A DNA stretch of 64,000 nt from Meghimatium bilineatum. Taxonomy: Eukaryota > Mollusca > Gastropoda > Stylommatophora > Philomycidae. Position 1 is the stretch's first letter; every line of letters begins with the position of its first letter. The translations under genes were made by a program, and so were the position numbers. The notes under the pieces are model-generated. The model did no database searches, was not told where the DNA came from, and saw only the letters and a program-made list of their open reading frames with translations. Location: NCBI GenBank assembly GCA_034231615.1, contig CM067298.1:2733834-2797833 (forward strand), written 5' to 3'. Positions 10,490 through 60,738 of this stretch are shown here, in pieces.

Positions 10490-11060
10490 TATGTTGTCTG
10501 CTACCTTTTGTATTTTTTGTTGGTGATCTTTAGATGTTCTTCTACACACCACACCACCAAGTCATCAGCGTACATTGCAGCTCTTACACCTTGTGGCAAT
10601 TCACAAATTATATCATTTATGAAGACAAGAAACAGAGTTGGAGACAATACTGAACCTTGAGGAACTCCATGTTTTAGAAGAACTTTTTAATTGTTGTATC
10701 ATTCCATGGTGACTCTTGCTTTCCTATTGTGTAGGAAGGAACGGATCCACTTGCTCATGTTGCCGCCTATTCCGTTTCTTTGCAGCTTTATTATCAGTCC
10801 ATCTTTCCAGACCTTGTCAAAAGTTTTTTGAAGATCTATCCATAGGGTGAAAACTTTTGTCTTTTCTTGAAATACGTCTTCTATGATCTGGGACAGGAAT
10901 GTTATTTGGTCTTCTGTACTGTTACACTCTCTAAACCCAGCTTGTTCTGGCACCAATAGCTTCTCTGATTCCATGTACCACTTTAGTCTTCTGTTGACCA
11001 TCCTTTCCATTGTCTTGCAGACACAACTCGTTAGACTAACAATTAAGTAACATCTTGTCA
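10490..11060 (-). pseudogene. LINE (I/Nimb-like) reverse transcriptase fragment
   Basis: Translated on the minus strand from about 11055 it reads SLTSCVCKTMERMVNRR, LLVPEQAGFRECNSTEDQ, LWIDLQKTFDKVWKDGL, then past a break at about 10690 KHGVPQGSVLSPTLFLVFIN and AAMYADDLVVWC (YADD box near 10555). It closely parallels the ORF at 58076-60445. It is cut at both ends inside the RT domain and has a frame break near 10690 and stops after 10540. No RNase H follows. Confidence 0.85.
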
Positions 11061-12180: not shown

Positions 12181-12480
12181 CACACGCATGTCGCAGTTAT
12201 ATTCAATAGCCTGAATCATTCTTTCCGTGTCTGCATTTTACTTAGGGAATATGTGCCAGCTGAACTAACCTGATTCAAATCCCATCTGCTTCCTACTGAC
12301 TATTACAGTAGGCACCATCCTCAACAGTTTAATACTGCTGACAACAGTAATGTCAGTTATTGTATTTATACGTTTGGGGGCCCATAGTGTGCTTTCTAGA
12401 TGGGGAGGGTTTAATGTAATGTATCGAAAGGAACATCAAAGCAGAATTTAAATACAATAAGTACATGTACAGGTATGTAC

Positions 12481-12487
12481 TCACCTG
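12481..12487 (-). other. Splice donor of Nkx6 exon 1
   Basis: On the minus strand the sequence reads CAG|GTGAGTAC, with the cut between 12485 and 12484. It matches the metazoan donor consensus and comes right after the conserved QPWR block. Confidence 0.85.
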
Positions 12488-13004
12488 GCGGTCTCCAGGG
12501 TTGAGGTAAAACTCCTGGCCAGTATATGGGTGGTCTGCCAGGCAACTCTGCCAATTTTGGAAATCGAGTCTGGTGGCCAAGGTACATGCTTGTATTAAGT
12601 CTGGGGAGTCCCAGAGCTGTGTGTGGTCTGCTGAGGATATCGTTAATACCGTGGGGAGTGGATAGAGCGTGGGACATTGCAACCTGCATTTGTTTGAGAG
12701 TGTCAGGTGAGTAGTCCTGAGTGAGGAACGATGAGGATGATGAGGGAAATTTCATCTCTGTCAAATTATGAAGAGCAGCGAGAGGAGGAGAACTCAGAAC
12801 GAAGGCACTCTGCTGCCGCGATGTCTCAATCCCACTTTGATGGTTCATGTTGAGAATAGACGCCATAGAAGGAGGCCCTCCAACGCTAGAGCCAGATCCG
12901 ACACTCGCCCCTGAACCCGGACTATGGTGTGGATGGTGGTGATGATGATGGCCATGACTGTTGTAGCTGTTTTGAGCTGCTTCGTTGCTGCAATAGTCCA
13001 ACAT
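12485..13004 (-). CDS. Nkx6: Nkx6 homeobox transcription factor, exon 1 (N-terminal 173 codons plus one base)
   Basis: Nkx6-class (NKX6.1/HGTX) proteins are nuclear homeodomain repressors that pattern neurons and endoderm in bilaterians. Seen here: a His-rich run at residues 17-27; RQQSAFVLSSPPLAALHN at 63-80; the Groucho-binding eh1/TN-type motif TPHGINDILSRP at 116-127; and PKLAELPGRPPIYWPGVLP at 149-167 followed by QPWRPPG. The last two blocks precede the homeodomain in this family. The exon ends CCAG|GTGAGTAC, a strong donor in phase 1. The homeodomain must be in later exons to the left. The start chosen at 13004 is the only ATG in the frame, which is open upstream to a TAA at 13158-13160. 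Confidence 0.93.
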
Positions 13005-13157
13005 CTCTGCTACTGTTGCCTCAGGAGAATTGGAGAGAGATGATGAAGACGACAGTGACGACGCCGGCGATGTTATGTGGCCAGGGAACCAGGCAGAAAA
13101 ATCTGCGTAGTTATAAGGGGTGGACTGGTTCGTCAGCGTGATTGACTGTTGGAGCTC
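13005..13157 (-). other. Open frame upstream of the Nkx6 start: likely 5'UTR, possibly extra coding sequence
   Basis: The 51 codons before the chosen ATG are in frame and stop-free (ending SLSNSPEATVAEM), and are Ser-rich like the N terminus itself. There is no ATG in them, and a TAA closes them at 13158-13160. They would be coding only if an upstream exon spliced in, or if a non-AUG start were used. A possible AG acceptor lies near 13153, but without a pyrimidine tract. Confidence 0.45.
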
Positions 13158-16774: not shown

Positions 16775-17635
16775 AGAACTGAATAATCTTCAAAAGAAAA
16801 CAATATTATGCAACATGATTGAAGATATGTACCCCAGAGAAGCATGGATACAAGCATATACTGACGGATCAGCAACCAGAGCAGTAAAGAATGGAGGTGC
16901 TGGCGTGTACATAAAATATCCAGAAAAAGAAAATGAATCCACATGTTCACCAACTGGAATATTCTGCTCCAACTTCTCTGCAGAAGTACAGGCTTTAAAC
17001 ATTGCTGCAGAAATAATTAAAAACACAACAAGTCAATGCCAGCAGGTGGTATTTCTTACTGATGCTATGTCTGTCCTACAAGCCCTTGACAGCGATAAAC
17101 TGCTAGACTCGAAGAAAGCCATGCGAGAAGTGAGCATACAAAGAAGGGTAGTACTACAGTGGATACCATCCCACTGTAGCATACCTGGAAATGAAGAGGC
17201 AGACAGACTGGCAAAGGATGGAGCAACACAGGAACAAAAAGACCAAGAAATCACCTACCAAGAAAAGAAGACCCTCATCAAGGCCATCAGGAAAGTCGAT
17301 CACGCAAAAGACAATTATCACTATCTTGACAGAGTAGAGCAGGTTATTATCTTCCGCCTCAGAACAGGACACAAGAGATTAAACAGCCGCTTAAATAGAC
17401 TAAGATTGGTCCCATCATCACTGTGCCTTTGTGGGCAGGCAGCACAGACAGCTGAACATATCCTGCAAGACTGCAATACACTAAACCAGTTAAGGGAAGA
17501 ACACTGGTCCACAGAGATGGATATCCACAGAAAGATGTATGGAAGCACTGAGGAGCTTTCAAATACAGCAGCATTTATTAAGAAAACAGGACTTGCTGTG
17601 TAGACATGTCAAACTCCGAACGAGAAGAAGAAGAA
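16775..17635 (+). mobile_element. 5'-truncated I/Nimb-like LINE with 12-bp target-site duplication
   Basis: The 12-bp gacacctttatt occurs at 16763-16774 and 17636-17647, right at the element ends. The target is itself repetitive, so the duplication is suggestive rather than proof. The insertion contains only the RNase H and C-terminal part of the ORF, a short 3'UTR (gacatgtcaaactccgaacg) and an (AAG)n tail. Confidence 0.8.
16776..17603 (+). CDS. RNase H and C-terminal domain of a LINE ORF2 (partial)
   Basis: RNase H in such LINEs degrades RNA in RNA-DNA hybrids during retrotransposition. All four catalytic positions are visible: YTDGS, SAEVQA, LTDAMSV and SHCSIPGNEEADRLAKDG. A Cys/His motif CLCGQAAQTAEHILQDC follows, as in the ORF at 58076-60445. 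The frame is open from the element edge at 16776; the first ATG is at 16815. There is no reverse transcriptase, so this is a 5'-truncated fragment. It is nevertheless undamaged, which suggests a fairly recent insertion. Confidence 0.85.
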   Translation, partial: ELNNLQKKTILCNMIEDMYPREAWIQAYTDGSATRAVKNGGAGVYIKYPEKENESTCSPTGIFCSNFSAEVQALNIAAEIIKNTTSQCQQVVFLTDAMSVLQALDSDKLLDSKKAMREVSIQRRVVLQWIPSHCSIPGNEEADRLAKDGATQEQKDQEITYQEKKTLIKAIRKVDHAKDNYHYLDRVEQVIIFRLRTGHKRLNSRLNRLRLVPSSLCLCGQAAQTAEHILQDCNTLNQLREEHWSTEMDIHRKMYGSTEELSNTAAFIKKTGLAV

Positions 17636-23105: not shown

Positions 23106-23250
23106 GACACTGTTACTTCCGCCGAAGACGGATGTGTCAGGTCATTGATGCAAATAAAACGGCGCCACGACGTATTTCAATTCTGTGAACCACATTCTGC
23201 TGGAAATCTAGTAGGACCCATGACCAGAATGAACCGCGCTGAGGCAAAAA

Positions 23251-24960
23251 TGTTACTGCAGCCGCTCTGAACTGAAGAAATGTTACTGCAGCCGCTCTGA
23301 ACTGAAGAAATGTTACTGCAGCCGCTCTGAACTGAAGAAATGTTACTGCAGCCGCTCTGAACTGAAGAAATGTTACTGCAGCCGCTCTGAACTGAAGAAA
23401 TGTTACTGCAGCCGCTCTGAACTGAAGAAATGTTACTGCAGCCGCTCTGAACTGAAGAAATGTTACTGCAGCCGCTCTGAACTGAAGAAATGTTACTGCA
23501 GCCGCTCTGAACTGAAGAAATGTTACTGCAGCCGCTCTGAACTGAAGAAATGTTACTGCAGCCGCTCTGAACTGAAGAAATGTTACTGCAGCCGCTCTGA
23601 ACTGAAGAAATGTTACTGCAGCCGCTCTGAACTGAAGAAATGTTACTGCAGCCGCTCTGAACTGAAGAAATGTTACTGCAGCCGCTCTGAACTGAAGAAA
23701 TGTTACTGCAGCCGCTCTGAACTGAAGAAATGTTACTGCAGCCGCTCTGAACTGAAGAAATGTTACTGCAGCCGCTCTGAACTGAAGAAATGTTACTGCA
23801 GCCGCTCTGAACTGAAGAAATGTTACTGCAGCCGCTCTGAACTGAAGAAATGTTACTGCAGCCGCTCTGAACTGAAGAAATGTTACTGCAGCCGCTCTGA
23901 ACTGAAGAAATGTTACTGCAGCCGCTCTGAACTGAAGAAATGTTACTGCAGCCGCTCTGAACTGAAGAAATGTTACTGCAGCCGCTCTGAACTGAAGAAA
24001 TGTTACTGCAGCCGCTCTGAACTGAAGAAATGTTACTGCAGCCGCTCTGAACTGAAGAAATGTTACTGCAGCCGCTCTGAACTGAAGAAATGTTACTGCA
24101 GCCGCTCTGAACTGAAGAAATGTTACTGCAGCCGCTCTGAACTGAAGAAATGTTACTGCAGCCGCTCTGAACTGAAGAAATGTTACTGCAGCCGCTCTGA
24201 ACTGAAGAAATGTTACTGCAGCCGCTCTGAACTGAAGAAATGTTACTGCAGCCGCTCTGAACTGAAGAAATGTTACTGCAGCCGCTCTGAACTGAAGAAA
24301 TGTTACTGCAGCCGCTCTGAACTGAAGAAATGTTACTGCAGCCGCTCTGAACTGAAGAAATGTTACTGCAGCCGCTCTGAACTGAAGAAATGTTACTGCA
24401 GCCGCTCTGAACTGAAGAAATGTTACTGCAGCCGCTCTGAACTGAAGAAATGTTACTGCAGCCGCTCTGAACTGAAGAAATGTTACTGCAGCCGCTCTGA
24501 ACTGAAGAAATGTTACTGCAGCCGCTCTGAACTGAAGAAATGTTACTGCAGCCGCTCTGAACTGAAGAAATGTTACTGCAGCCGCTCTGAACTGAAGAAA
24601 TGTTACTGCAGCCGCTCTGAACTGAAGAAATGTTACTGCAGCCGCTCTGAACTGAAGAAATGTTACTGCAGCCGCTCTGAACTGAAGAAATGTTACTGCA
24701 GCCGCTCTGAACTGAAGAAATGTTACTGCAGCCGCTCTGAACTGAAGAAATGTTACTGCAGCCGCTCTGAACTGAAGAAATGTTACTGCAGCCGCTCTGA
24801 ACTGAAGAAATGTTACTGCAGCCGCTCTGAACTGAAGAAATGTTACTGCAGCCGCTCTGAACTGAAGAAATGTTACTGCAGCCGCTCTGAACTGAAGAAA
24901 TGTTACTGCAGCCGCTCTGAACTGAAGAAATGTTACTGCAGCCGCTCTGAACTGAAGAAG
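23251..24960. repeat. Tandem repeat, 30-bp unit, 57 copies, essentially identical
   Basis: The unit begins tgttactgcagccgctctga and ends actgaagaaa. I read 56 identical copies; the last ends gaag. There is no variation over 1.7 kb, unlike every other large array here. The unit resembles the SINE A tail (ctctgaagaagaa). Confidence 0.97.
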
Positions 24961-43914: not shown

Positions 43915-46147
43915 TCTGGTTTCCAGGTGAGTCGCTTGTCTAGTTTGAAACCGAGATATGTAGGGTTCTCCTCGTGTGCTCTCTTTCATTTATTTGTAGA
44001 TTTGCTTTTTCTTGGTGGTTTAAAAGTTAACAGATGGATTTCACAGTTTTGGAGAGGTTGATCTGGACTCCCCAGTCAGATGCCCATTCGCTTAGGGTAT
44101 CAAGTGCTGTCTGCATTCTGTTTTTTGCAGTGGATAGGTTGCCTGCCACATTCCAGGCAGTAAAGTCATCTGCATGAAGGGTCTTTGAAATATGATGTGA
44201 CAGTTTCTCTCCCATATCATTGATGAATACTAGGAAGAGGGTAGGAGAGATCACTCCTCCTTGAGACATTCCTTGTTTGAGAGTAACACGTTTACCATCT
44301 ACTTTTACTCTTGCAGTGCGGTAGCAGAGGAAATATTTTATCCAGCTGAACATTCTTCATTCAATTTTGTTTTGGAGAAGCTTGAAGAGGACTCTATCTT
44401 TCCACACTTTATCGAAGACTTTACTCACATAAAAGTTGCAACATTTTTTCTTTCTTTTGAAAAGCATTTTCGATTTCCTGTGCCAGGTATATATGCTGTT
44501 GTTCAGTGTTTCGATTTTTCCTATAGGTAATCTGTGTCTTGGTGAGTTTTTTGTTTTTCCTCTATTTTATTAGTCTAGAATTGACCATTCTCTTCATTGC
44601 TTTTCATACTCAACTGAAGAGGCTGACTGATCGGTAGCTTGACTTGCTGGTTTTTGGGGGTTTTTTTAACCTTTGGATGATGACAGCTTCATGCCATAAG
44701 TCTGCAATTTTACCAGTTTTTCATGATTGGTTGAAGATGGTAAGGAGCTTGTTTCTTCTGATTGGCCCTAGGTTCCTGATTATATCATTGGTTATGCCGT
44801 CTTCTCCTGGGGCCTTTTTGTATATTAGTTTTCCTATGGTAGCATTTAGTTCTGCGGTAGTAAAGGGTGTCTTCATTCATGGCTCTGGAATTTCATTCTT
44901 CAGTTTTCTTTTAATTTATTTTTTTACTTCTTTGATACGTGTATTAGAGAGTGTTGTGCTCTCTTCCTTGTAGAAATCAGCTAAAATGTTTGTTGCCATT
45001 TTCACTGTGTGGAATTTTCCTTCTTCTTTGATGACAGTCTTGTAATGTGAATTCTTTGTTTCTTCATTTAGAGTTCTTGTAAGGTTCCATAGTTTACTTG
45101 TGTCTTTTGTCATGTTTAGACGGCTGGTCTTTTCATGCCAGCTCTTTTGTATCTCTGTTCTTTTCTGCTCATTGAACGTGTGTTTGATTTCATTGTGTTT
45201 CTTTGTGTTTTCTGCTGTAGGGTTTTGCTCCATTGTATATCTTGCATCATTCAGCTCGTTATGCAATTTTTTTAGAGTCTCACTCCAATAAGACTTGTAT
45301 TCTCTTCGTCTGCCCCTTGGGATTGCCTTCTGTGCGGATTGTAGTATCACTTTGTTTATTTGTGAGATGTTATGGTTTATGTTGTTAGTGAGGGAGATAT
45401 TCTGGCAAAGCTGGTCTGTTTGTTCACTGAAGAGGGTCCAATTTGCTTTTTTGAAGTTCAATTTAGGGACATGCTATGTTGTCCTGTACTTATTGAGTTG
45501 GAGATTTGCAGGATGACTGGTACATGGTCACTTCCTCCCAGTTGACTTTCTACTGTTCTTGTGATGTGTCTATCTATGTCATCTGTTGCCATGGCAATGT
45601 CTGGGGAGCTAGTTTTTTCCCAGACTCGGGAGTAGAATGTTGGTGTATCGTCTGGCTGGTTTATGAGAATTAGTTTATTTTCCACCATCCAGTCTTCTAT
45701 CTTTTCATCTCTTTGATCTATATCCTCGTAGCCCCAGCTTGGTGAGTGGTCATTAAGTCACCCACTATTAGACGTCTCCATTCTCTTATCTTTGGTTTAC
45801 AAAGTTCTATTTTTGTTGCAGGAAGGTTGTAGCAGTTTGTGATTGATATTTCTCCGCCAGGCAGCCTCAATTTCACTTTTATATGTTCCAGTTCTCCTTC
45901 TCCGGATCTTTTTACTTCTACTGCTGGTATTGATATTATTATAAATGTCAGTATTCCTCCCTTGATTCTTTTGGCTCGATCGTGGCGGAAGGACTGATAA
46001 CCCCGAATAAAGAATATCTGAGTCCTGTAGGTGAGTTTCTTGTATGCACATTATGTTGATCTGGTTTTTCCTCAGGAATTCCTGCAGCTCAGGTTTTTTG
46101 TTTCGCAATAACGAAGACTTAAATATATAAGCCAGTAACAGGATCAC
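43915..46147 (-). pseudogene. I/Nimb-like LINE ORF2, endonuclease and reverse transcriptase, decayed
   Basis: Minus strand. The endonuclease begins near 46105 with LRKNQINIMCIQETHLQ (catalytic Glu), continues IVGDLNDHSPSWGYEDID (near 45760) and SDHVPVILQ (near 45510). A linker (45461-44916, one long open frame) ends ILADFYKEES. The RT follows with PGEDGITNDIIRNLG (near 44815), QGGVISPTLFLVFINDM and LHADDFTAWNVAG (near 44170), then NPTYLGFKLDKRLTW (near 43950). Several frameshifts and stops are present. RNase H, tail and ORF1 are absent. It is more divergent from the 58076 ORF than the 10490 fragment is. Confidence 0.85.
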
Positions 46148-57179: not shown

Positions 57180-57760
57180 AAATGTAAAGTAAGCAATAAA
57201 TACGATTACGTGACAGATGTCAAGTAAGCAATAAATACGACTACGTGGCAAATGTCAAGTAAGCAATAAATACGACTACGTGGAAAATGTCAAGTAAGCA
57301 ATAAATACGATTAAGTCTCAAATGTCAAGTAAGCAATAAATACGATTACGCGTAAAATGTCAAGTAAGCTATAAATACGATTACGTGGCAGATGTCAAGT
57401 AAGAAATAAATACGACTACGTGGCAAATGTCAAGTAAACAATCAATACGACTACATGGCAAATGTCAAGTAAGCAATAAATACGACTAAGTGGCAAATGT
57501 CAAGTAAGAAATAAATAAGGATTACGTGGCAAATGTCAAGTAGGAAATAAATACGATTATGTGGCAAATGTCAAGTAAGAAATAAATACGATTACGTGGC
57601 AAATGTCAAGCAAGAAATACATAAGGATTACGTGGCAAATGTCAAGTAAGAAATAAATACGATTACGTGGCAGATGTCAAGCAAGAAATAATTACGATTA
57701 AGTGGAAAATGTCAAGTAAGCAATAAATATTACGTGTCAAATGAAAAGAAAAAACTTTAA
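57180..57760. repeat. Tandem repeat, about 35-bp unit, about 16 copies
   Basis: The unit begins gtaagcaataaatacgatta and ends cgtggcaaatgtcaa. The right end of the array lies within the 246-bp sequence that was duplicated by the LINE insertion. Confidence 0.93.
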
Positions 57761-57889
57761 AAACAATGCATAAAAACTTTTATAATTATATTTTACAAAT
57801 AAGACAAATACATAGATTGGAAATGTCCACCACAGGGCATTTGTCAAGATAAAGACAAACACAAACTGGGAATATACCTTTTTTTTAAA
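57644..57889 (+). repeat. 246-bp direct duplication, left copy (target-site duplication of the LINE)
   Basis: Base-for-base identical, by my reading, to 60493-60738. It comprises about three units of the 35-bp array and about 150 bp of unique DNA ending in eight T and AAA. The left copy ends exactly where the LINE begins. Confidence 0.9.
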
Positions 57890-60492
57890 GGTACAGGGAG
57901 AAATACCAGGATCACACTTAATAAAGATAGAAACATTTTAACAGGTAAACATGCAGCTGATTACTTTGCAGATTCCTTTGCAGAAGACAATAACGTCAAA
58001 GTCAGCCCAGACAAACAACAGGAGGTTCGAGAGAACCAGCAAAACATTGGACAAGGTGAACCTATACCTGAAGTCATGGAGGCACCAATCACAATGAGAG
58101 AACTGGAGCATGCAATATCCAAATTGAAAATGAAAAAGTCCCCTGGAGCTGATGGAGTGTCCAATGAAATGATTAGAAACCTGGGAAGTGCAGCAAGAGC
58201 AAAGCTACTGCAGATCTTTAACATAAGCTGGTCCACAGGTAATGTACCACAGGCGTGGAGAGAAGCAATAATGATACCACTCCTCAAATCAGGAAAAGAT
58301 GGCAACACAGTCTCCAACTACAGGCCCATCAGCCTCACAAGCTGTCTATGTAAAACAATGGAACGCATTATCAATCTTAGGATGCAGTGGTACCTTGAAA
58401 GTGAAAACCTTCTGGTATCACAGCAAGCAGGTTTCAGACAGTGCTACTCTACTGAAGATCAGGCAACCTACCTCTCCCAAGAGATTGAGGATGCCTTCCA
58501 AGAAAAGAAACTGGTACTAGCAGCATGGATAGACCTCAGGAAAGCATTTGATAAGGTCTGGAAAGAAGGGCTCCTAAAGAAATTGCGAAATTGCAGGGTT
58601 AGCTCAAGAATGTACAAATGGGTAAAAGCATACCTGCATAATAGAAGAGCCAGGGTACAATTAGATGGGCGCAAGAGCAAGAAAGTTCTACTGCGTCATG
58701 GAGTCCCCCAGGGAGGAGTCCTGTCACCCACACTTTTCTTGGTTTACATCAATGACCTAGTTGCTGAACTACCACACGGGATCAAAGTGGCAATGTATGC
58801 TGACGACCTGGTGATCTGGTGCACGGAAGAACATGCAACAGTGGCCAGTAAACAAATACAAAGAGCTATCGATGCCCTAACCTTATGGGCTAATAGATGG
58901 TGCGTCAGCATTAACACAGATAAGTGCAGCACTACACTCTTTACCCTCTCACCAAAACAAAAAGCTGGTCAAATCAAGATAGATGGAAAGCTCTTGAAAG
59001 AAGACAAACAACCCACATACCTCGGAGTTACTTTTGATGATAAGCTGACATGGAAGCAGCACATAAACAAAGCAACAACAAAAGCCAGGAGGAAGCTAGC
59101 TATCCTGAGAAAACTAAGTGGAACCACATGGGGAGCCAGTGGAAATATACTCAGTAAAGTTTACCAGCAAGGCATAAGACCACACCTGGAATACGGTTCA
59201 GCTGCGTGGTGTCCTGCATCAAATACCACATTGCAAGATCTAGATAAAGTGCAAAACCAGGCACTTAGAATAATGTTGGGAGCAATGAAATCAACACCCA
59301 TAGCAGAGATGCAGAAAATGGGAAGAATGCAAACACTTGGCGAACGCAGAGACACAAAAGTACTAATTCAAGCAGAAAAGTTTCAGTGTATGCCAAGTCA
59401 TCCAATGAAGGAAAGATTCCAAAATCTAGCAATGGGACGACTGAAAAGGAGCAGCTTTATCCATCAAGCTAAACGACTCCGTAGACAACTTACAGACCTA
59501 CCTGAAGTTGACAGCCCCTTAAGGTCTGTACCAGAGCAAACCCCGTGGAGTGAAAGCCATGGAATGCCAATATACATTCAGACCCATGTGAAAGGAATAC
59601 TAAGCGAGGACGAACAGAACAGTGTGCAGCGAATGACAGTCACCCTCAGTTTCCTGGATGAGGAATATCCACAAGATATATGGGTCAGAGTGTACACAGA
59701 TGGGTCAGCACAGAATGCTGTGAGGAATGGAGGTGCAGGTGTATATATAGAATATCCACACAAGCCTAGAGATACAATCAGAACACCGACAGGAAAATTC
59801 TGCAATAATTATGATGCAGAAATCCAGGCAATTAGTGTAGCAGCTAAAAAACTGCTGAACTCCAACTCTGACCTACAGCCTGTGGTATTCCTGACAGATG
59901 CAAGGTCAGTGCTTCAAGCTCTCCAGTCTGGAAAACTAACAGACTTAAAAAAACTACTTAGCGAATTGTCTTACCAGTATAGGGTAACCATGCAGTGGAT
60001 ACCCTCTCACTGTGGAATACCAGGAAATGAAAAAGCAGACCAACTGGCTAAGTTAGGTGCTGCCGAAGACCAACCAGATATACCAATCACCTACCATCAG
60101 AAAAAACAGATGATAAAGTCAATAAGAAAGCCACAAACACCAACACAAGATGACTATCACAATATGAACAGATCAGAACAAGTTATAATTCTACGTCTCA
60201 GAACAGGACACAACCGACTCCGCAGTCACATGTATACAAAGTTCAAGATTGGCAACACGGCCATGTGTACATGTGGACAGGCAGCACAGAGTGCCAAACA
60301 TATACTTCAAGAGTGTTCTGAGCATGAAACGCTGAGGCAGACATATTGGCCAGAGGAAACAACACTGGAATCAAAGCTCTATGGGACACTGTATGAACTA
60401 CAAAAGACAGTGAGTTTTATTAAGGAGACAGAATTACAGATATAGACATGTTTCAAGTGAACGAAAGAAGAAGAAGAAGAAGAAGAAGAAGA
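57890..60492 (+). mobile_element. 5'-truncated I/Nimb-like LINE, recent insertion with 246-bp flanking duplication
   Basis: A 2603-bp insertion lies between two perfect copies of a 246-bp target sequence. It starts inside ORF2, in the linker before the RT, so endonuclease and ORF1 are lost. It ends with a short 3'UTR (gacatgtttcaagtgaacga) and an (AAG)n tail. Intact ORF and identical flanks indicate a young insertion. The element could not move by itself because it lacks its endonuclease. Confidence 0.88.
58076..60445 (+). CDS. LINE ORF2 fragment: reverse transcriptase and RNase H, uninterrupted
   Basis: 789 codons from the first ATG. The frame is open from the element edge (57890) and, by chance, from 57803 in the target duplication, so the ATG is not a natural start. 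RT blocks: SPGADGVSNEMIRNLG (near 22-37), YRPISLTSC, AAWIDLRKAFDKVW (catalytic Asp 153), GVPQGGVLSPTLF, and MYADDLVIW (Asp 243/244). PTYLGVTFDDKLTWKQH follows. RNase H residues are YTDGS (Asp 542), DAEIQA, LTDARSV and SHCGIPGNEKADQLAK. A CTCGQAAQSAKHILQEC motif is at 731-747. All catalytic positions are kept. RT plus RNase H and a GAA-type tail fit the I superfamily; databases often label such proteins jockey. Confidence 0.92.
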   Translation: MEAPITMRELEHAISKLKMKKSPGADGVSNEMIRNLGSAARAKLLQIFNISWSTGNVPQAWREAIMIPLLKSGKDGNTVSNYRPISLTSCLCKTMERIINLRMQWYLESENLLVSQQAGFRQCYSTEDQATYLSQEIEDAFQEKKLVLAAWIDLRKAFDKVWKEGLLKKLRNCRVSSRMYKWVKAYLHNRRARVQLDGRKSKKVLLRHGVPQGGVLSPTLFLVYINDLVAELPHGIKVAMYADDLVIWCTEEHATVASKQIQRAIDALTLWANRWCVSINTDKCSTTLFTLSPKQKAGQIKIDGKLLKEDKQPTYLGVTFDDKLTWKQHINKATTKARRKLAILRKLSGTTWGASGNILSKVYQQGIRPHLEYGSAAWCPASNTTLQDLDKVQNQALRIMLGAMKSTPIAEMQKMGRMQTLGERRDTKVLIQAEKFQCMPSHPMKERFQNLAMGRLKRSSFIHQAKRLRRQLTDLPEVDSPLRSVPEQTPWSESHGMPIYIQTHVKGILSEDEQNSVQRMTVTLSFLDEEYPQDIWVRVYTDGSAQNAVRNGGAGVYIEYPHKPRDTIRTPTGKFCNNYDAEIQAISVAAKKLLNSNSDLQPVVFLTDARSVLQALQSGKLTDLKKLLSELSYQYRVTMQWIPSHCGIPGNEKADQLAKLGAAEDQPDIPITYHQKKQMIKSIRKPQTPTQDDYHNMNRSEQVIILRLRTGHNRLRSHMYTKFKIGNTAMCTCGQAAQSAKHILQECSEHETLRQTYWPEETTLESKLYGTLYELQKTVSFIKETELQI

Positions 60493-60738
60493 AAGTAAGA
60501 AATAAATACGATTACGTGGCAGATGTCAAGCAAGAAATAATTACGATTAAGTGGAAAATGTCAAGTAAGCAATAAATATTACGTGTCAAATGAAAAGAAA
60601 AAACTTTAAAAACAATGCATAAAAACTTTTATAATTATATTTTACAAATAAGACAAATACATAGATTGGAAATGTCCACCACAGGGCATTTGTCAAGATA
60701 AAGACAAACACAAACTGGGAATATACCTTTTTTTTAAA
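60493..60738 (+). repeat. 246-bp direct duplication, right copy
   Basis: Begins directly after the LINE tail and ends in eight T and AAA, after which the locus continues aaacaatatttaaagaaag. Identical to 57644-57889 with no indel (constant offset of 2849). Confidence 0.9.

Follow-up and report, generated by a model that had tools for sequence, protein, structure and literature searches.

How long interspersed nuclear elements (LINEs) cut the second strand of their target is poorly understood. The R9 element of the rotifer Adineta vaga, attributed to Gladyshev and Arkhipova (2009), reportedly makes an exceptionally long target duplication, said to be of 126 bp; R9 is also said to be specific for ribosomal DNA, with the long duplication as its normal state. 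The element is also mentioned in PMC3636483, and a literature search for a 126-bp R9 duplication turned up one unrelated paper, PMC4844689. For human L1, the available text of PMC5223499 reports that duplications of more than 100 bp were never above 10% in HeLa cells in earlier work, and gives them as 4/7, 21/23 and 22/28 in XPA-, XPC- and XPD-deficient cells, respectively, and as 3/9 in complemented cells, with examples of 217, 242, 275 and 277 bp from the repair-deficient cells. In the same part of that paper, the authors proposed a distal second nick and stated that nearby long homologies tend to recombine. For zebrafish ZfL2-2 in wild-type chicken DT40 cells, the available part of PMC2666801 describes 1 of 25 insertions with a 1,228-bp duplication and the rest with short target-site changes. 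Here we describe a 5'-truncated LINE of the gastropod Meghimatium bilineatum that is flanked by two copies of a 246-bp sequence and lies in a 64,000-bp window (C1:2,733,834-2,797,833) of a 1.61-Gb, 32-contig assembly. We read it, with a probability of roughly 0.87, as a young LINE insertion in which a distant second-strand break gave the 246-bp duplication.

The earlier note, made from the letters of the window, had claimed that the two 246-bp copies are identical and abut the truncated 5' end and the (AAG)n tail of the LINE exactly. Direct alignment bore this out, with 0 mismatches across 246 bp and an identity that extends 0 bases further to the left and 0 bases to the right (Table 1). The left copy meets the element start at 57889|57890 and the right copy meets the end of the tail at 60492|60493. 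The duplication measures 243-246 bp, since one nucleotide on the tail side (A, assigned by hand) and two at the 5' junction (AA) can be assigned to the element as well as to the target. The assembly was searched with the 246 bp as query, the best 40 of 208 candidates being scored and 45 matches listed. Among the matches listed, the full 246 bp was found only at the two flanking sites; the next-best were neighbouring minisatellite stretches (at most 111 query bases, at most 86% identity), and the remaining ones covered at most ~140 query bases at no more than 87% identity. A chance origin of the 246-bp identity is excluded. The first 100 of the 246 bp lie within a 35-bp minisatellite and the other 146 bp outside it. 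Slippage of this minisatellite was rejected as the source of the second copy, only 100/246 bp being in the array.

The truncated element retains an open frame of 851 amino acids with RVT_1 and RNase_H domains. Its best sequence matches among solved structures were an RNA-directed DNA polymerase chain (8c8j, E 5.3e-23), LINE-1 ORF2 proteins (E 1.2e-22 and weaker) and R2 proteins. Longer genomic copies begin CTCCATCGAGACCA and measure ~4.05 kb. One of them, L042, carries an APE-type endonuclease (Exo_endo_phos_2, 4.5e-17; Exo_endo_phos, 2.5e-13) upstream of the reverse transcriptase (RT; RVT_1, 1.1e-39) and RNase H (RNase_H, 1.3e-5, the open reading frame (ORF) being cut at the locus end), so that endonuclease, RT and RNase H stand in one ORF, of which the window copy, its 5' part gone, keeps RVT_1 and RNase_H only. 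Judged by these predicted domains, APE/RT/RNase H LINE is the most apt description of the element, whose clade may be the "I-type" or another group that bears RNase H. The family is abundant and young: the assembly contains 14,084 exact matches to the 28-base 3' end (7,089 forward, 6,995 reverse), and at least 40 copies are at least 99% identical over a 911-base stretch. The window copy differs from the L010 copy at 0 of 2574 bp, which together with the identity of the flanking copies indicates a recent insertion.

A survey of family duplication lengths, of the kind that the earlier note had proposed for all copies, sets this locus against a narrow norm. Both flanks were read for 23 full-length insertions from L041-L068 and for 9 of 10 further copies, 32 in all, and an exact duplication of 9-14 bp, median 12, was present in 31 of them. 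The exception is C1:22777, whose duplication is unmeasurable within an AT repeat (30 bp with one mismatch). Left out of this count were L069, which was read without its 3' end, C2:96932, where the predicted position held no 3' end, and L050 and L056, which are inner members of the C11 array described below. The claim that a 246-bp duplication is an outlier is thus upheld. The LINE at 16775, cited in the earlier note as a sibling with a 12-bp duplication, does show ~12 bp by eye, but shares only ~65% DNA identity with the window copy and is better called a relative. Related LINE fragments in the window are found at 10504-11049 (-), 43920-45008 (-) and 16776-17600 (+), with 36-61% protein identity.

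Truncated insertions were more varied. Twelve were scored, each locus group being counted once (L018/L020/L021, L027/L035 and L033/L038 were grouped by matching flanks); L014, L023, L024, L028-L031, L034, L036, L037 and ten full rows without loci were omitted, as their 5' ends lie beyond the fetched flank. Duplications measured 7 bp (L055), 9 bp (L026), 11 bp (L040/L010 and L025), 12 bp (L019, and L027/L035 with 9 in one copy) and 13 bp (L018/L020/L021), and 11 bp also accompanied the twin-primed inversion of L033/L038. The window copy has 246 bp and an array on C11 has 3,098 bp, both far above the family median of 12 and both at normal first nicks. For L022 and L032, no duplication was seen in the 4.5 kb read downstream; these may be target deletions or still longer duplications. 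A departure from the short duplication was therefore found in 4/12 truncated and 0/32 full-length insertions (Fisher p = 0.0036, the unmeasurable copy being taken as normal), which is only a hint because the samples are non-random and the window case was given at the outset.

Several of these loci have features of their own. L033 and L038 (C14:30.29 Mb and C18:27.00 Mb) are twin-primed copies in which 187 bp of the 5' end stand inverted; their classification as duplication-less was rejected, since the inverted piece (element positions 4-190) lies between the 11-bp duplication and the element. They share flanks, and probably one arose by duplication of the other. At L019 (C23:84.717 Mb), the first tail is followed by a second, head-to-tail copy of the LINE 3' end (~107 bp including its tail). 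One truncated LINE occurs three times at C6:25.95-25.97 Mb (L018, L020, L021) with the same 13-bp duplication, changed at one base in L021, in a locally repeated block. Five near-identical copies with the same right flank are spaced ~57-111 kb apart at C22:51.84-52.18 Mb (L028-L031, L034), an arrangement that points to large segmental repeats.

The first nick of the window insertion conforms to the family. In a set of 33 insertions (31 full-length, 2 truncated), the duplication started at Y|A (T or C before, A first) in 30 and at TY|A in 23, compared with a T-Y-A frequency of 0.040 of window positions. The window duplication starts at TGTC|AAG and that on C11 at CATC|AGG. Both are TC|A, indicating that reverse transcription began at ordinary sites in the two long cases. 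Second breaks of normal insertions showed weak preferences, with no C just after the break in 33 and a G just before it in 1/33. The window second break lies in T8AAA|AAACAA, where AA is common to the element sequence upstream of the truncation, and the C11 5' junction has three extra bases, TGC, before the element. Shared-base counts at the other truncated copies are not comparable, their starts being set by alignment, which absorbs shared bases. Both second breaks appear unlike precise endonuclease cuts, and a chance host nick or a processed end followed by end joining would fit better.

The second long case is a tandem array at C11:22,019,200-22,049,800 (L049, L050, L051, L056, L110-L112), in which four truncated LINE copies recur with a period of 6631-6632 bp in the arrangement D-(LINE-D)x4, D being flush with the LINE ends. 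If the array grew from one long-duplication insertion, a complete D should stand on the outer side of both the first and the last LINE. Both array edges and one of the three spacers were fetched in full. The upstream edge carries D, beginning at the tail-end point of the spacer, and differs from the spacer at 1 of 3,100 bases (3,097 from D, 3 from the filler); the downstream edge carries the first 3,097 bases of D without difference and then departs from it. These 3,097 bases and one base shared with the tail make D 3,098 bp. Of the other two spacers a part was read, and all four LINEs are preceded by the same 961 bp; the four copies differ by 1-3 of 2950 bases in the part read. An ordinary tandem duplication of a LINE-containing locus was rejected for C11, as it would not leave each outer side with a complete, flush D. 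The expansion would find its natural explanation in unequal exchange between the 3.1-kb repeats.

A distant second break is the best reading of the window locus because of the flush 246-bp identity, the truncated LINE with its open ORF and tail, the family norm, the motif fit, the C11 case and the precedents in other LINEs. We infer an order of events in which the young LINE would have entered by target-primed reverse transcription, its endonuclease nicking the bottom strand at an ordinary TC|A inside a minisatellite unit. Reverse transcription, starting from the (AAG)n tail, would have halted early and left a 5'-truncated complementary DNA (cDNA). The top strand would then have been broken ~246 bp away instead of the normal ~12 bp, whether by a displaced endonuclease cut or by a host nick that fell there by chance, and the cDNA end joined at that point by end-joining repair, perhaps aided by the 2 shared bases; fill-in of the 246-nt staggered ends would give the two identical flanking copies.

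Several points weigh on the other side. Long duplications were found in only 2/44 measured insertions, one of them the starting case, and taken alone their frequency (2/12 truncated, 0/32 full-length, p = 0.07) is not significant. The second-break sites of the long cases bear no clear endonuclease signature, and the C11 break, G|G, follows a base that precedes 1/33 normal sites. The 2 shared bases at the window 5' junction could be chance, and we infer, rather than observe, the single-copy state of the locus before insertion.

Three other histories were considered. The 246 bp might have been tandemly duplicated beforehand, with the LINE landing exactly at the junction; tandem repeats abound in the region, which makes a local duplication plausible, but 146 of the 246 bp lie outside the minisatellite, and a LINE with the usual 12-bp duplication would have left ~12 extra bases of the second copy to its left, where there are none. 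This history would require the LINE to have hit a single position among 246 and to have made no duplication there, with a like event in the 3.1-kb C11 case, and we regard it as very unlikely. That the assembly wrongly added a second copy is scarcely credible even in so repeat-rich an area, since such a duplication would have no reason to stop at both biological ends of the LINE or to start on the nick motif of the family, and a second locus has the same layout with a different length. Lengthening of a normal short duplication at a later time, through unequal exchange or replication-based copying, is a kind of rearrangement that does occur in this genome, as the C11 expansion attests, but is highly improbable here. 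Such growth should leave stretches of the element within the copies or a short duplication where the element ends, and neither trace is seen; a single distant second break explains all junctions.

Table 1 Features of the LINE insertion and its target site, in window positions
Feature	Position	Strand	Remark
35-bp minisatellite containing the first nick	57180..57743	+	
Putative first (bottom-strand) nick, start of target-primed reverse transcription	57643..57644	-	TC on the + strand before A, as in the sibling motif
Left 246-bp target-site duplication copy	57644..57889	+	Identical to 60493-60738, flush with the element
Putative second (top-strand) break	57889..57890	+	246 bp from the first; AA shared with the element
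5'-truncated LINE body	57890..60464	+	Cut at about position 1465 of the ~4.05-kb element, by comparison with longer copies
Remainder of the open LINE ORF	57890..60445	+	851 amino acids and stop, no internal stop
Reverse transcriptase domain	58301..59035	+	Pfam RVT_1, E 7.3e-40
RNase H domain	59684..60061	+	Pfam RNase_H, E 4.3e-15
(AAG)n tail (element end 60492)	60465..60492	+	
Right 246-bp target-site duplication copy	60493..60738	+	Identical to 57644-57889

Tandem repeats abound in the window at large (89 rows, some overlapping), among them 57 near-perfect copies of a 30-bp minisatellite at 23248-24959. An open frame at 12411-13157 (-) resembles part of an Nkx6-type homeobox protein.

The window duplication is a real outlier and a natural example of a known aberrant end-step of LINE insertion. 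Among the routes raised in the earlier note, nicks far apart proved the likeliest, whereas another integration route is unnecessary, since long duplications are documented for other LINEs; the window case is no evidence for such a route. The interest of the window finding is moderate, and it is raised by the C11 case. With its many young copies, tight 12-bp norm and clear long exceptions, the family offers a natural test bed for the second-strand cut. We tentatively suggest, at somewhat less than even odds, that this cut is set tightly at ~12 bp for full-length cDNA but goes wrong in some truncated insertions, which then have long duplications or none, and that the long ones, as large direct repeats, seed new tandem arrays of LINE and host DNA such as that on C11 with its 6.6-kb unit. 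The C11 locus shows that a single aberrant insertion can give rise to a new tandem array in a simple way. Short duplications are discussed as seeds of tandem repeats in the available part of PMC9659126; a literature search at the level of titles and abstract openings found no report of a tandem array seeded by a long LINE duplication.

Among known systems, the locus resembles human L1, also an APE-type LINE, for which the available text of PMC5223499 describes mostly typical first nicks and duplications of hundreds to thousands of bp; those insertions were made in cultured cells, whereas the window case arose naturally and belongs to a different LINE group. The ZfL2-2 cases are likewise experimental and concern a different LINE. 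A further comparison is with the full-length copies of its own family, which share the element, tail and first-nick motif but have duplications of 9-14 bp. Unlike what is said of R9, the long duplication is here an exception in a family with a 12-bp norm. Long LINE duplications are thus already known; the present work adds a natural case from an APE/RNase H LINE whose family norm has been measured, together with another that has grown into an array.
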